Below, piece after piece: positions 50,723 through 64,000 of a DNA stretch of 64,000 nucleotides. The notes under the pieces were generated by a model. That model was not told the DNA's origin. It saw nothing but the letters and a program-made list of their open reading frames with translations, and made no database searches. The DNA lies in contig JAEUPQ010000040.1 in assembly GCA_016789405.1 (NCBI GenBank), forward strand, positions 1-64,000. Reading direction: 5' to 3'. This stretch comes from Lysobacteraceae bacterium (GTDB taxonomy: Bacteria > Pseudomonadota > Gammaproteobacteria > Xanthomonadales > Xanthomonadaceae). The translations under genes were made by a program, and so were the position numbers. The number at the start of each line of letters is the position of its first letter. The first letter of the stretch is position 1.

Positions 50723-53008
50723 ATGCGCCGCACCCGTACTGTCGAAACGCTGTCTCCCGCCGCTCTCCGCCGTGCCGCGATCCGGCACAGTGGCCTGAGC
50801 CTGGCCATCGCCCTGGGCCTGTTCGCGCCGCTGGGCCATGCCCAGGACGCCTCCGACGCCCCGGCATCCGAGGAAGGCACGCTCGACACCATCAAGGTCA
50901 CGGCCCGCAAGCGCGAGGAAACCCTGCAGGACGTGCCGGTGGCGGTGACCGCGTTCACGCCGGACACGCTCGACCGGCTCAACGTCGAGGACCTGAGCGA
51001 TCTCGATGCGCAGGTGCCGAACCTCACCATCTACGCCGCGCGCGGCTCCAGCAGCACCGTCACCGCTTACATCCGCGGCGTCGGCCAGTCCGATCCGCTC
51101 TGGGGCGTCGACCCGGGCGTGGGCATCTACCTCGACGACGTTTACATCGCCCGACCGCAGGGCGCGCTGCTCGACGTGTTCGACATCGGCCGCATCGAAG
51201 TGCTGCGCGGCCCGCAGGGCACGCTGTACGGCAAGAACACGATCGGCGGTGCGATCAAGTACGTCTCCAAGCCGCTGCCGGAAACGCTGGATGGCTTCGC
51301 GTCGATCACCGTCGGCACCGACAGCCAGTTCGACGTGAAGGGCGCGATCGGCGGCCCGATCTTCGGCGAGAACAGCGGCCTGCGCGCGCGCGTTGCGGTC
51401 GCCAGCCTCAATCGCGACGGCTTCGGCGAGAACGTCAATACCGGCCAGCCGGCCAGCGACAAGGAAATCAACGCATTGCGCTTCAACCTCGGCGCCTATG
51501 CCGGAGAGACCTTCGACGCGCAGTTCACGTTCGACTGGATGGACGACCAGTCCGGCGTGCGCGCTGCGCGCATGCTTGCGCCGAACCGCTTCGCGCCCAC
51601 CACGCAGCCGCTGGACAGCCGCTACGACGTGCGCAACGGCATGCCGAACGTCAACGACACCGAGATGAAGGGCATGTCGGCCGTGTTCAACTGGCGCCCC
51701 GCCGAAGGCTCCGCACTGGAAGGCTGGGCCTTCAAGTACGTCGCCGCACGCCGCGAATCCGACACCGAGACGAACATCGACTTCGACACGCTGCCGAACA
51801 AGATCGCCGACGTGAAGGCGTTCTACAGCGACGAACAGACCTCGCAGGAATTCCAGCTCAACTACGACAAGGGTGGCCGTGCGCGCGGTGTGATCGGCCT
51901 CTACAGCTTCGACGGCACGGCCGGTGGTCGCGTGCTGAACAACTTCTTCAACCTGCTGTTCGGCGACACGCAGGGCAAGGTCGATACCGAAAGCTTCGCG
52001 GTCTACGCCGACTGGACCTTCGACCTCACCGATCGACTGAAGCTCGACGTCGGTGCGCGCTACACCGATGAAGACAAGCGCGCCCGCGTGCTCAACCGCG
52101 GCTATTCCGATGCCACGTTCAGCCGCCCGATCAGCGTGGTCGCGAACTTCGACAAGACCATCAACTTCAAGAACACGTCGCCGAAGATCTCGCTGGATTA
52201 CCAGGTCACCGACGACATCATGATCTACGGCCTGGCGAGCCGCGGCTTCAAGTCCGGCGGCTACAACATCCGCGCACAGGCCACGGCAGTGCCGCGGTCG
52301 GCCGAGCCGTTCGACGACGAGCAGGTCGACAGCCTGGAAATCGGCACCAAGATGTCGCTCTTCGACCAGCGCCTGTTCCTGAACCTGTCGGCCTTCCACA
52401 ACAAGTACAAGGACATGCAGCTGTCGGTGTTCACCGCCTACGACAGCAATGGCGACGGCACCGACGACGCGTTCTTCGGCGACTTCACCAACGCAGGCCA
52501 GGGCACGGTCAACGGTCTGGAAGTCGAGTACCAGTGGCTGCCGACCAAGCATTGGGCGATCAGCGGCAACCTGGCCTGGCTTGATGCCGAGTTCGACGAG
52601 TACATCTTCAAGAACGTCAACATCGCCGGCCAGCAGGAATTCACCAATGCACCGGAGTTCTCCGGCGCGCTGAACCTCGAGTACCGCACCACGCTCGGCC
52701 GTGCCGGCAGCCTGTCCGCACGCCTGGGCTACAGCTACCAGAGCGAAGTGGTCGCGACGACGGAAGTGGTGCGCGACCCTGTCACCGGCGCGACCGCTCA
52801 GCCGATCACCCAGGACGGTTACGGCCTGCTCAACGCCGGCGTGATCTGGAAGCCGAACGCGTCGTGGACGCTGTCGCTGCAGGGCAGCAATCTGACCGAC
52901 AAGGAATACCTGACCACCGGCTACAACCTCGTGTCGTCGCTGGGCGTGCTCACCGGGTTCTATGGCGCACCACGCCAGTTCTCGCTCACCGCACGCTACG
53001 ACTTCTGA
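50723..53008 (+). CDS. TonB-dependent outer-membrane receptor (2)
   Basis: A 761-residue outer-membrane receptor with a signal peptide (cut near GHAQ). A TonB-box-like segment DTIKVTARKREETLQDVPVA and the plug (about 55-165) follow, with VGIYLDDVYIARPQGALLDV and RIEVLRGPQGTLYGKNTIGG. A long barrel ends in RYDF, the normal terminal Phe. The KREE-LQDVPVA signature places it among the broad IroN/CirA-like xanthomonad receptors. Start ATG 50723 follows GAGGA by nine bases. It shares a 161-base divergent gap with the GntP permease, suggesting joint control and possibly a common substrate. Confidence 0.92.
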   Translation: MRRTRTVETLSPAALRRAAIRHSGLSLAIALGLFAPLGHAQDASDAPASEEGTLDTIKVTARKREETLQDVPVAVTAFTPDTLDRLNVEDLSDLDAQVPNLTIYAARGSSSTVTAYIRGVGQSDPLWGVDPGVGIYLDDVYIARPQGALLDVFDIGRIEVLRGPQGTLYGKNTIGGAIKYVSKPLPETLDGFASITVGTDSQFDVKGAIGGPIFGENSGLRARVAVASLNRDGFGENVNTGQPASDKEINALRFNLGAYAGETFDAQFTFDWMDDQSGVRAARMLAPNRFAPTTQPLDSRYDVRNGMPNVNDTEMKGMSAVFNWRPAEGSALEGWAFKYVAARRESDTETNIDFDTLPNKIADVKAFYSDEQTSQEFQLNYDKGGRARGVIGLYSFDGTAGGRVLNNFFNLLFGDTQGKVDTESFAVYADWTFDLTDRLKLDVGARYTDEDKRARVLNRGYSDATFSRPISVVANFDKTINFKNTSPKISLDYQVTDDIMIYGLASRGFKSGGYNIRAQATAVPRSAEPFDDEQVDSLEIGTKMSLFDQRLFLNLSAFHNKYKDMQLSVFTAYDSNGDGTDDAFFGDFTNAGQGTVNGLEVEYQWLPTKHWAISGNLAWLDAEFDEYIFKNVNIAGQQEFTNAPEFSGALNLEYRTTLGRAGSLSARLGYSYQSEVVATTEVVRDPVTGATAQPITQDGYGLLNAGVIWKPNASWTLSLQGSNLTDKEYLTTGYNLVSSLGVLTGFYGAPRQFSLTARYDF

Positions 53009-53085: not shown

Positions 53086-53106
53086 GCCCTCTGCGTTGCG
53101 TGCGCA

Positions 53107-53138
53107 CCGTCCCCGTCGAAACGGGGGCGGTATTTTTT
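53107..53138 (+). terminator. Intrinsic terminator after TonB receptor 2
   Basis: A ten-pair stem, CCGTCCCCGT/ACGGGGGCGG (one G-T pair), with loop CGAA is followed by TATTTTTT. It ends plus-strand transcription before the convergent flavoenzyme gene. Confidence 0.85.
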
Positions 53139-53168: not shown

Positions 53169-55247
53169 TCAATGCTTGAGGATGTCGTTTTCGTCCGTGG
53201 TATGGAAATGCCGCTTGAAAGGCACGCCATCGGCGACGGGTTCGTCGAGTGCGCGCGCGTAGCGATGTCCTGAATACACCGCATGCGCGATGAGGCCCGG
53301 TGCCAGCGCGTCGCCAATCCGAATGACGGTACGGACGCCCGCGTCGGTCCATTCGCTTTCTCGCGATGCGATCGCGTGGTACAGCGTGTCATCGGGCAGT
53401 CGCGAGGTGATCGTCACCACCGCCGCGCAGTCGAGCGTGCACGACTTGCCGCTCCAGGCGTGTTCCAGCGACAGCCGGCCATCGGCGAAGCCGGTGACGC
53501 TGTGCGAGACCACCTGCTCGACACCGAGTTCGGCCATCCGCCACTGGATGTGGCGGTAATCGAGCGTATGCGCGCTCCATGACGCGATGGTGTCGTCGGG
53601 CGTGACGTAGAAAACCTCGCGCCCAGCCTTGCGCAGGGCCTCGGCGATGACGCTTCCGGTGTGGAAATAGTCGTCGTCGTAGAGCGCGACCGGACCGTCC
53701 GGCAGTCTGCCGTCCATGATGTCGTCCGGCGTGAACACGGCCGGGTTGTCGACGAAATCGCGCAGCGCCTCGCCATGGGTGCGCCCATAGCCATCGCGGC
53801 GCCAATGGCAACCCGTCGCGATCACGACGTGTTCCGCGCCGAAGTCGAGCACGTCCTGCGCGCTCAGGATGGAGTCAAGATACGTGGCGACATTGTTCAT
53901 CTTGCGGATCTGCCCGAGTCGCCAGTCGCGCACCCGTGCCCACTCGGCGAGCCCGGGCAGACGTGCTTCGCGGGTGACGCGACCGCCCAGTTCGCGACGC
54001 GCTTCGGCCAGGTGCACCTCGTAGCCGCGCTGGCCCAATGCCCGAGCCGCTTCCAGGCCCGCCGGTCCGCCGCCGATCACCAGCACCTTCGCGCTCGACT
54101 TCGCCGGTGCGATGCGCTCGGGATGCCAGTCCTTGCGCCATTCCTCGCCCATCGTCGGATTCTGCGTGCAGCGGATCGGCGTGATCGTGTTGTCGCCGGA
54201 CACGCAGAGATTGCAGCCGATGCATTCGCGGATGTCGTCGATGCGGCCTTCCTCGATCTTCTTCGGCAGGAACGGGTCGGCGATGGAAGGGCGCGCAGCA
54301 CCGATGAAGTCCAGCACGCCGCGCCGGATCTGCGACACCATCGTGTCCGGCGACGTGAACCGGCCGACGCCGACCACGGGCTTGCTCGTCGTCTTCTTCA
54401 CGAAATCGATGAACGGCTCCTGCGCGCCCTCGGGCGCGAAGCGCGAGGGCACGGAATCGTTGTACCAGGCCGCGACGTTCACGTCCCACAGGTCCGGCAG
54501 TTCGGCGAGCATGCCGACGATGTCCTGCGCTTCTGCAAGTTCGATGCCGCCCGGGCCGAGCATCTCCTCGGTCGCGAAACGGATCGCGACCGCGCAGCGA
54601 TGGCCCACGGCGTCCTTCGTGTCCTGCAGCACTTCGCGCAGCAGGCGCACGCGATTGTCGAGCGAGCCGCCGTATTCGTCGGTCCGATGGTTGCGGCGGC
54701 GCTGCAGGAAATGCATCGCCAGCGACAGGTCGTGGCCGCAATAGACGTAGATGATGTCCATCCCGGCGCGCATGCCTCGCAATGCGGCTTCGCGATGCCA
54801 GCGCCGGTAGTTCGCGATGTCCTGTTTGTCCATCGCCCGCGCCTGCGAAGGGTAGCCATACTTCGATGGCTGGTGCGAGGGGGCGATCAGCACTTCGCGC
54901 GAGTAGAGGTTCGACGCCGTGGGTCCGTTGTGTGTCAGCTCGACCGCCGCCAGCGCGCCGTGCGCATGCACCTTGTCGCACATCAGGGCGAGGGCGGGGA
55001 TGTCGCGGTCGTCCCACAATCGCGCTTCGACGTAGGGCGACAAGTCGCTCGACGGATGGATCTCGCATTCCTCGGTCGCGATCACCGCCCAGCCACCTTC
55101 GGCCTTCACCTCGCGCATCGCGGCATGCGCCAGCGGCATCGCATGGCCCATGCCGTTGCAGTGCGGCACCTGGAAAAATCGGTTCTTCGCCGTGACCGGC
55201 CCGATGCGCATCGGCGTGAAGAGGATGTCGTAGCGAGGGTCGCGCAT
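53169..55247 (-). CDS. Fe-S flavoenzyme, dimethylamine/trimethylamine dehydrogenase-like
   Basis: A 692-residue protein with an N-terminal FMN barrel and a C-terminal FAD/NAD-binding domain, like TMADH and 2,4-dienoyl-CoA reductase. Cys30 (QVPHCNGMGH) equals the TMADH cysteine bound to FMN. Cys342/345/348/360 (CIGCNLC...RC) bind a [4Fe-4S] cluster. The second-domain dinucleotide motif is VIGGGPAGLEAARALG. From memory, residues at TMADH Tyr60 and Trp355 are Glu60 and a non-Trp residue here, so the substrate is probably another N-methylated amine or amino acid rather than trimethylamine. No electron-transfer flavoprotein gene is adjacent. Confidence 0.85.
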   Translation of the reverse strand: MRDPRYDILFTPMRIGPVTAKNRFFQVPHCNGMGHAMPLAHAAMREVKAEGGWAVIATEECEIHPSSDLSPYVEARLWDDRDIPALALMCDKVHAHGALAAVELTHNGPTASNLYSREVLIAPSHQPSKYGYPSQARAMDKQDIANYRRWHREAALRGMRAGMDIIYVYCGHDLSLAMHFLQRRRNHRTDEYGGSLDNRVRLLREVLQDTKDAVGHRCAVAIRFATEEMLGPGGIELAEAQDIVGMLAELPDLWDVNVAAWYNDSVPSRFAPEGAQEPFIDFVKKTTSKPVVGVGRFTSPDTMVSQIRRGVLDFIGAARPSIADPFLPKKIEEGRIDDIRECIGCNLCVSGDNTITPIRCTQNPTMGEEWRKDWHPERIAPAKSSAKVLVIGGGPAGLEAARALGQRGYEVHLAEARRELGGRVTREARLPGLAEWARVRDWRLGQIRKMNNVATYLDSILSAQDVLDFGAEHVVIATGCHWRRDGYGRTHGEALRDFVDNPAVFTPDDIMDGRLPDGPVALYDDDYFHTGSVIAEALRKAGREVFYVTPDDTIASWSAHTLDYRHIQWRMAELGVEQVVSHSVTGFADGRLSLEHAWSGKSCTLDCAAVVTITSRLPDDTLYHAIASRESEWTDAGVRTVIRIGDALAPGLIAHAVYSGHRYARALDEPVADGVPFKRHFHTTDENDILKH

Positions 55248-61279: not shown

Positions 61280-61831
61280 GTGTACTCCCGCAGCAGTGAA
61301 CCGGTCCGCTTCGAGCGCGACTGCGAAGCCGTCCTCGTCCCTCAGGGCGACTCGGTGACCTTGCCGGCCGGCAGCGTCGGCTACATCACCCAGGCCCTTG
61401 GTGGGAGCTGGACGGTGTTCGTCGAAGGCAACCTGATGCGGATCGCGGGCAAGGACGCGGACGCCATCGGCAAGGAACCGCCGCCGCCGATCGAACTGCC
61501 CGAAGGCGCCGACGACGAGGAAGTGGAGAAGCTGGTCTGGTCGCAGCTGCGCACCTGCTTCGATCCCGAGATCCCGATCAACATCGTCGAACTCGGACTG
61601 GTCTACGGCGTGGAGATCAAGCGCAGCGACGAGGGTGCACGCATCGTCGAAGTGCGCATGACCCTGACCGCACCGGCGTGCGGGATGGGCGAGGTTCTGG
61701 TGGACGACGTGCGCGGCAAGATCGAACTGATCCCGACCGTCGTCGAGGCCGATGTCGAACTGGTGTTCGACCCGCCGTGGACGCGCGAGATGATGTCGGA
61801 AGTGGCGCGCCTCGAAACCGGCATGCTCTGA
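61280..61831 (+). CDS. sufT: Fe-S cluster assembly protein SufT
   Basis: A 183-residue protein of the MIP18/DUF59 family, thought to help mature iron-sulfur proteins. The C-terminal half has DPEIPINIVELGLVYGVEI and the conserved Cys in LTAPACGMGEVLVDDV, ending ELVFDPPWTREMMSEVARL. The N-terminal half (LPAGSVGYITQALGGSWTV) is the SufT-specific extension. It starts with GTG 61280. A possible -10 box, TACAAT (61234-61239), lies upstream without a good -35. It is divergent from TonB receptor 3. Confidence 0.9.
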   Translation: MYSRSSEPVRFERDCEAVLVPQGDSVTLPAGSVGYITQALGGSWTVFVEGNLMRIAGKDADAIGKEPPPPIELPEGADDEEVEKLVWSQLRTCFDPEIPINIVELGLVYGVEIKRSDEGARIVEVRMTLTAPACGMGEVLVDDVRGKIELIPTVVEADVELVFDPPWTREMMSEVARLETGML

Positions 61832-61902
61832 CACGGGGCTGTGGCCGGCACGCCGAGACAGACGCGCCGAGAGAACGCGTGCCGTGACAAGCGTGCTTTG
61901 AC

Positions 61903-61940
61903 GGACATGATTCGACATCCGCGCTTTGACAATCATGTCC
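61903..61940. repeat. Inverted repeat downstream of sufT
   Basis: GGACATGAT (61903-61911) and ATCATGTCC (61932-61940) are inverted nine-base copies 20 bases apart. Each arm is flanked by GCTTTGAC-type sequence, so the unit also looks like a diverged direct repeat. The role is unknown. Confidence 0.4.
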
Positions 61941-61973
61941 TGTCTGTCGCGATCCGGCTGTCACGTCATGGCC

Positions 61974-62010
61974 GTGATGTTCTCGGAGTGATGTTCTCGA
62001 AGTGATGTTC
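61974..62010 (+). repeat. Short tandem repeat, 14-base unit
   Basis: Units GTGATGTTCTCGGA and GTGATGTTCTCGAA are followed by a partial third copy, GTGATGTTC. The copies differ at one base. It lies in the sufT-TPR gap. It may be a slipped-strand variable site or a protein-binding array. Confidence 0.55.
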
Positions 62011-62199
62011 GACAGCCATGATCGAATGTCCTGCGCACAATCTTTCTTGTCATGGTGCGCGCCATCCTGCAAGCGGGAAACGACGCTTTCGCGGCGCCGC
62101 GATGTCGCGGTTTCGTCGCGTCTGCTGCCTTCGCACCCGTGCGCATCCGTCAAAAACGGGACCGCACGCGCGTTTTGATTTCATTTGAGCTTTTTTGAG

Positions 62200-62372
62200 G
62201 CCCGATGCATCGCGCGAACGCGATGCCGGCTCCACCATCCATGTGCCCGCGAGAGCCCTCGTCGGGGATGCGTCGCGACGGGTCCACCCCTCCATGGAAC
62301 CGTCGCGATCGGCATGCGATGCGACATTCACGACTCTTGAGGCCGCGCGTGCTCCACCGCGGCCTATTTTTT
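62200..62372 (+). ncRNA. Possible structured small RNA or leader RNA ending in a terminator
   Basis: Three GC-rich hairpins lie in series. The first is GCATCGCG-CGAA-CGCGATGC (62207-62226). The second is TCGCGACGG/CCGTCGCGA (62273-62308), with a 3-pair inner extension TCC/GGA. The last is AGGCCGCG/CGCGGCCT (62340-62365), followed by ATTTTTT, a plus-strand intrinsic terminator. No protein gene on the plus strand ends here, and sufT stops 510 bases earlier. A promoter could not be identified. An unusual long 3' end of sufT is the main alternative. The 5' boundary is a guess. Confidence 0.4.
62340..62372 (+). terminator. Orphan plus-strand intrinsic terminator
   Basis: Stem AGGCCGCG (62340-62347) and CGCGGCCT (62358-62365) with a ten-base loop, then A and six T. 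Read on the minus strand it has no T-run, so it is oriented for plus-strand transcription although the nearest gene to the right is on the minus strand. Confidence 0.7.
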
Positions 62373-62403
62373 GCGCGAGTCGTCTGCGCGAGGATCCTGT
62401 CGC

Positions 62404-64000
62404 CTACCTGGACGCGCGTGCCGACAGCCAGTCCAGCCGGGCGCCAGGCAGCGGGTCATCGGCCGTGCTGCGGGATGTCGACGCCGTCTCCCCCAGGCTG
62501 CCGTCGCGTGCCAGCGCATCGAGTTCGGCCAGCAGCACGCCGTCGTCGTGGCGACGTGCGCGGTCGCGCAGCTGCGTCCAGCGTGCATGCGCCTGGGCCG
62601 GATCGCCGGCCTGCAGGGTGTCGAGCAGATCCAGGGTTTCCAGCCTGCGCTGCAGCGCCCACACGTCCGGCTGGGAACGCTTGCGCGCATCGTCGGCGAT
62701 GGCGCGGCTGCGCGTCAGGTCGCCGCGCGCCATCGCGATTTCCGCCAGCCCGATCCGCATGCCGGTGGCGAGCAGGTCGTAGCCTGCATCCTCGCAGCGT
62801 TGCAGTGCGGTGCCGTACAGCCGTTCCGCGCGGTCGTATTCGCGGACGCGCGCAAGCAGCGAGGCCACGGTTTCGACCATGATCCAGTGGTCGGTGCCGC
62901 GCGGCATGGCATCGATCGCTCGTTCGATCTGGTCCAGATGCACGCGTGCCTGGGCCTCGTCGCCATCGAGGAGGTCCGCTTGTGCTTCCAGCACCTGGGA
63001 CCACTGACGCAGATAGGGTTCTTCCGCATGCCGACAGGCGTCGATCCTGCGTCGTGCTGCCGGAACGTCGCCGCGCGCCAGGTCCAGGTCGCCACGCACG
63101 CAGGACAGTCGCGCGGCGATGCGGCTCGGCAGCGACTGCCCCTGGGCCGTGAGTCGCTGTTCCACCCGTTGCAGAACGGCTTGCGCCGTCGCGGCATCGC
63201 CGCCGCGCAGGTGCAGCATGGCGTCGAATTCGGCGGCCCAGTAGACGCGCTCGTCGCTGTGCGTGCCGCGGCTGAGTCGTGCGATGCGCGCCCTTGCGCT
63301 GGCGTGGTTGCCGATCAGCGCGTCCTGGTTCAGGAGGTCGAACTCGAGTGAATCCTGCAACATGGTGTCGCCGGACGCATTGGCGACATCCAGTGCGTCG
63401 CGCAGCAGCGTGCGGTACTGGGCATGCGAGCCCGCGTTGTAGTGCTTGAAGGCTTCGCGACGCAGTACCTCGGTTTCGATGGCGGCATTGCCCGCGCGTC
63501 GCGCTTCTTCGCGCAGGGCGCGCATCGCCGCCGTCTCGCCCAGCGCATCCCCGCGCCGGGATTCGTCGGCGAGATAGCGCGCGTAACGACCGGCCAGGCG
63601 ATCGCCCGCGGCTTCGAATTCCCCGGCGGCCAGTTCGAACATCGATGGCGAGGGCGCGTTCCCTGCCTGGCTGTGGTGCACGCGCGCCAGTTGCAGCCGT
63701 ACCGATCCGCGTTCCTGCGCCCAGCCCGGGCCGAGTCGTGCCAGTTGCGAAAGCGTGCGCTGTGCCCGTGCACGCGCGTCGTCGAGGTCGCCATCGATCC
63801 CCGCGATGTCGGTGAGCAGGAACTCGCGACGGATGCGTCGATCGAGCGGCTCGCGTGCCCAGTCGACGGTGCGTGCCTGCAGCAGCGCGTCCGCTGCGCG
63901 CGGGTCGCCATTGCGCAGCAGCAGGCGTGCGTGCGCGAGTGCGAAGTCGGCGCGCGCGGGGAATGCGCGCGACAGCGTGGCCAGTGCGCGGGCCGCCTCA
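62404..64000 (-). CDS. TPR-like helical protein, start beyond the window
   Basis: The frame is open to the right edge, so the N-terminus is missing; 531 residues are visible. The whole visible part is helix-turn-helix repeats rich in Ala, Leu and Arg (for example ARLSCVRGDLDLARGDVPAARRRIDACRHAEE), typical of TPR-type scaffolds. No catalytic motif is seen. Such long TPR arrays often sit C-terminal to a winged-helix DNA-binding domain or a kinase domain in this group, but nothing of that kind is visible here. The GTG at 63681 is internal. Confidence 0.75.
   Translation of the reverse strand, partial: EAARALATLSRAFPARADFALAHARLLLRNGDPRAADALLQARTVDWAREPLDRRIRREFLLTDIAGIDGDLDDARARAQRTLSQLARLGPGWAQERGSVRLQLARVHHSQAGNAPSPSMFELAAGEFEAAGDRLAGRYARYLADESRRGDALGETAAMRALREEARRAGNAAIETEVLRREAFKHYNAGSHAQYRTLLRDALDVANASGDTMLQDSLEFDLLNQDALIGNHASARARIARLSRGTHSDERVYWAAEFDAMLHLRGGDAATAQAVLQRVEQRLTAQGQSLPSRIAARLSCVRGDLDLARGDVPAARRRIDACRHAEEPYLRQWSQVLEAQADLLDGDEAQARVHLDQIERAIDAMPRGTDHWIMVETVASLLARVREYDRAERLYGTALQRCEDAGYDLLATGMRIGLAEIAMARGDLTRSRAIADDARKRSQPDVWALQRRLETLDLLDTLQAGDPAQAHARWTQLRDRARRHDDGVLLAELDALARDGSLGETASTSRSTADDPLPGARLDWLSARASR

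Follow-up and report, generated by a model that had tools for sequence, protein, structure and literature searches.

Between a sufT-like gene and the gene that runs towards it, a 173-nt stretch of the plus strand (positions 62200-62372 of the window, i.e., of the whole 64,000-nt stretch of DNA that was analysed) presents a series of hairpins of which the last is an intrinsic terminator. The reading preferred here, which we give about an even chance of being correct, is that this structured RNA and its plus-strand terminator end transcripts that have read through from sufT. The 3' UTR of sufT would then measure about 540 nt and end at the terminator. The terminator, that is, would halt polymerase before it could enter the opposing, convergent gene, and the stems before the terminator would stabilise the RNA's 3' end. 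We thus infer from the DNA transcription of the stretch, the origin of its RNA with sufT, and both an insulating and a stabilising role. Among the genomes searched, and so far as sequence comparison can tell, the element is known from this genome only.

Gene Neighbourhood

The sufT-like gene (61280-61831, plus strand) is an open reading frame of 183 aa with a GTG start that matches the Pfam family FeS_assembly_P (PF01883) at 46.9 bits, versus a cut-off of 23.5. The name sufT comes from the earlier note on this DNA and fits that family. SufT matches are found in 9 of 11 genomes of the genus and in 97 of 99 of the family, the present genome included in each count. Past the sufT stop lies a convergent intergenic region of 572 nt (61832-62403), and then a minus-strand gene (62404-63999) which ends at 62404 and runs past the end of the window. 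That gene has relatives in two longer sufT loci, L037 and L038, and its scanned part (62407-63681) gave no Pfam match.

It had been claimed earlier that no gene ends at the terminator, which was described consequently as an ‘orphan’. The first of these statements does not hold, as sufT ends upstream on the plus strand at 61831, and the second is half right. Because the site is found between convergent genes, sufT on the plus strand and the other on the minus strand, the terminator can end sufT read-through. Nevertheless, 508 bases separate the sufT stop from the terminator stem. A gene hidden within the intergenic region was considered as well and rejected, since none of six scanned open reading frames overlapping that region reached the Pfam cut-off (there was one chance match, at E 0.19). 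These six do not include four further overlapping frames that lie for the most part inside the neighbouring genes.

Hairpins and Terminator

The stacked hairpins and plus-strand terminator that the earlier note described are both present, in the place that it gave. Hairpin 1 (62207-62226, plus strand) consists of 8 perfect pairs closed by the four-base loop CGAA. Hairpin 2 (62273-62308, plus strand) has, as had been said, a 9-pair stem, that is, 9 perfect pairs, which are followed by one mismatch and then by 4 more pairs. Its arms are thus 14 nt in length and 93% complementary, and its 8-base loop is C-rich, reading CCCCUCCA in the minimum-energy fold. That fold places hairpin 2 inside of a larger branched domain, itself closed by a stem, and adds a short hairpin (62246-62266) between hairpins 1 and 2. 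The terminator (62340-62372, plus strand) is an 8-pair stem with a 10-base loop (62340-62365), then an A and six T's (62367-62372). Seven of its 8 stem pairs are G-C and the T run comes directly after the stem, as is expected of intrinsic, i.e., Rho-independent, terminators.

Only on the plus strand does this T run come 3' of the stem, and relative to shuffles the fold is stronger on the plus strand (z -3.3) than on the minus strand (z -1.8). The anatomy supports an RNA 3' end on the plus strand. A stock terminator scan did not pick up the 62340-62372 terminator, as the 10-base loop exceeds that scan's loop limit of 8. A looser custom scan, run without a shuffle control, did recover it, as one of 9 plus-strand and 8 minus-strand sites across the window, several of which are probably due to chance.

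Another terminator of the window (53106-53131) offers a comparison. It too combines a GC-rich stem with a position between convergent genes, in this case a TonB-receptor gene (plus strand, ending at 53008) and an OYE-like gene (minus strand, ending at 53169), and it has the same ten-base tail, ATTTTTTGCG, as the terminator following sufT. A terminator with this tail between convergent genes is, then, an ordinary arrangement in this genome. The two differ in that the 53106-53131 terminator lies 97 bases rather than 508 from the upstream stop, in that its stem has 11 pairs and a loop of 4 instead of 8 pairs and a loop of 10, and in that only the 62340 terminator has another two or three stems in front of it.

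Structure Relative to Chance

The minimum free energy of the 173-nt stretch is -80.5, versus -66.4 (sd 4.3) for shuffles (the z of -3.3 given above), and an equally good fold was seen in 1 of 200 of those shuffles. Perfect hairpins, counted as stems of at least 8 pairs with loops of 3 to 12, number two (hairpin 1 and the terminator) versus 0.066 expected, a count that 4 of 2000 shuffles equalled. The window was sampled as well, at 200 stretches, one per 320 bases, with 20 shuffles each, which makes for rough z values. By this measure none of the 200 other stretches had a z as low as the element's, the nearest being -3.95 versus -3.98, although 5 of the 200 were at z <= -3. The element therefore is not alone among the structured places of the window: it is among the most structured of those sampled, without standing apart.

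Search for Relatives

In the two nearest relatives within the genus, SufT is near-identical (97 and 98 percent) and the same convergent partner is kept (78 and 77 percent). The gap between these genes, however, counted by eye from the printed sequence between stop codons, is about 30 and 87 nt in those relatives versus 572 nt here. No stretch resembling the element is found between the genes in either, nor, by eye, does a terminator comparable to that at 62340-62372 follow sufT there, and sufT in those genomes thus manages without one. Stems broken in relatives had been named beforehand as what would speak against an RNA. Strictly, that is not what is seen: the whole stretch is missing in these two genomes rather than its stems being broken. 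As a separate observation, in three other genomes of the genus (loci L006, L007 and L009) the next gene after sufT, some 430-480 nt on and read in the same direction, seemingly is another one (by eye), and the neighbourhood downstream of sufT thus varies within the genus.

A DNA search of 59 relatives, with E up to 0.001, returned the element from its own genome only. The same search with this genome's own copy of the small RNA sX13 as control gave matches in 24 of 59 genomes, among them 10 of the 11 genus genomes (both counts include the own genome), so the method does detect a conserved sRNA of this family. Going by such comparison, the element does not behave like one. Among 395 family genomes, for which two candidates per genome were scored, 89 (own included) had a DNA match at E <=0.01; 8 of these, not counting the own genome, were at E <=0.001, with a best E of 5.7e-5. 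The matches outside of the own genome were rejected as homologues, all being of 57 nt or less and none spanning the element; the fragments mostly represent hairpin 1 plus bases flanking it on either side. The 369 bases upstream of the element gave, in 11 genus genomes, off-site matches of at most 54 nt at E 0.002 or weaker, of which nine fell in the own genome, none of them stronger than E 0.4. When the region was compared with 34 sufT loci by local blastn, there was, within 61832-62403 and not counting the ends of matches that start in sufT, nothing longer than 20 nt or stronger than E 0.27; the longer loci L037 and L038 were compared instead by eye.

A covariance model (R1) was also employed, a weak probe in that it consists of a single sequence entered twice. 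With E up to 1 it found weak, scattered matches in 12 of 118 other family genomes, in 7 of 10 other genus genomes and at two further places in the own genome (21.6 and 14.8 bits). The best of its matches, in genome G004 (25.9 bits, E 6.2e-4, versus 221.7 bits for the element itself), was rejected, as the stretch is covered by several long overlapping open reading frames; one of these seems to resemble PspA. Against the window and 36 sufT loci, i.e., 34 distinct places with L037 and L038 as longer copies of L004 and L003, only the element scored above 15.4 bits.

A mobile element was rejected as an explanation: plasmid and phage databases gave no match to the element, a 25-base core of it had no exact match in viral contigs, and no second copy was found by DNA in the own genome. 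Narrow literature searches found nothing on this locus, so that publication elsewhere is possible.

Comparison With sX13

Across the whole window, Rfam returned only two tRNAs at gathering score. With E up to 10, region 61832-62450 gave four matches, all of E at least 2.2 and far below gathering, which were rejected as chance, and sX13 (RF02232) was not among these four. What has been described of sX13 is a conserved RNA of 115 nt located after polA, with three stems whose C-rich loops act on G-rich motifs (PMC3771888). This genome's own sX13 (L074:1130-1237, minus strand; RF02232, 58.4 bits versus gathering 50) is downstream of polA as well, and also matches the alphaproteobacterial ar14 below gathering (34.4 of 58.8 bits). 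The element and sX13 have in common serial hairpins, an unpaired C-rich loop, and occurrence in the same family, Xanthomonadaceae. The element, though, is longer, sits after sufT rather than after polA, possesses just one plainly C-rich loop, and by DNA matches 1 of 59 genomes (its own) versus 24 of 59 for sX13. Indeed, polA and sX13 are on another contig, while the element is flanked by the sufT-like gene and by the gene lacking a Pfam match.

As for C-rich motifs, the loop of hairpin 2 is fully unpaired in the ensemble. The motif UCCACC occurs three times in 128 nt, which none of 2000 shuffles achieved, though this motif was picked after inspection. Its first copy is mostly unpaired, and the other two each have 4 of 6 bases mostly paired. 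Across the window UCCACC is not enriched (33 copies versus 29 expected), and within the element neither CCUCC nor CCCC is in excess, with one copy of each; of 2000 shuffles, 482 and 1630, respectively, have at least as many.

Promoter-Like Sites

A weak promoter-like site, GTGACA-16-CATGAT (61884-61911, plus strand), agrees at 9 of 12 positions and was the one such site found, versus 0.2 expected, in a 4-kb scan. RNA from there to the terminator would measure about 450 nt. No site of at least 8 of 12 was present within 240 bases upstream of 62200, where a site at 62150-62179 is weak, at 7 of 12. Overlapping the -10 of the 61884-61911 site is a perfect 10-bp inverted repeat, GGACATGATT / AATCATGTCC (61903-61940, arms 18 bases apart), which occurs once in the own genome and could be an operator.

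Alternative Readings

The earlier note had left a choice between an undescribed sRNA and a sufT 3' end with a regulatory role. A plus-strand 3' end is indeed supported by the structure and the terminator, and a sufT end, not necessarily a regulatory one, is the simpler of the two, sufT being the nearest upstream plus-strand gene, while an sRNA is without a convincing nearby promoter or a relative in the genomes searched. A sufT 3' end is thus more likely than a separate sRNA. It is not without difficulties, as a gap of 508 bases between stop and stem makes for a long 3' UTR (versus the 97 at the other convergent pair), sufT in the two nearest relatives does without a comparable terminator (by eye), and the 9-of-12 site at 61884 along with the three UCCACC copies would suit a separate regulatory RNA. 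That latter RNA, which we hold to be somewhat unlikely, would stand alone, at about 185 nt if begun from 62150-62179 or about 450 nt if begun from 61884-61911, with its C-rich loop and linker binding G-rich ribosome-binding sites in the manner of sX13. Structure in excess both of shuffles and of sampled window stretches is consistent with such a molecule, as are the unpaired loop of hairpin 2, the cluster of UCCACC and the promoter-like site at 61884-61911, and sRNAs of this style do occur in the lineage, as the own sX13 demonstrates. Against this, no relative was found in 59 genomes and nothing but short fragments in 395, the promoter-like sites are weak (the best shortly upstream being 7 of 12), there is no excess of CCUCC or CCCC, and pairing takes up most of the bases of two of the three UCCACC copies.

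More doubtful still is that the stretch is intergenic DNA rich in hairpins, which this lineage gained or else the two relatives lost, and in which the terminator is an accident and no function has been selected. The occurrence of the whole element in one genome only, with the two nearest relatives doing without, would fit with this, as would the lack of a second own-genome DNA copy and of phage, plasmid or viral-contig matches, and the five other window stretches of 200 at z <= -3. Chance is nevertheless an unlikely source of stems plus a textbook terminator in a space of 170 nt, going by the two perfect hairpins that 4 of 2000 shuffles matched. A bolder proposal, and to us quite improbable, is of a recent regulatory RNA of one Lysobacter-like lineage, arisen from DNA gained between sufT and its neighbour, which by convergence would act through C-rich sequence as sX13 does (CCCCUCC in the loop and UCCACC in the linker, directed at G-rich ribosome-binding sites), possibly with a regulator at the 61903-61940 repeat.

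Were the element a real sRNA, it would exemplify the birth of an sRNA in a single lineage, and closely related genomes would show what the site looks like when the sRNA is lacking. Should it instead be the 3' end of sufT, as preferred here, then it would be ordinary, another case of convergent genes with an intrinsic terminator between them.
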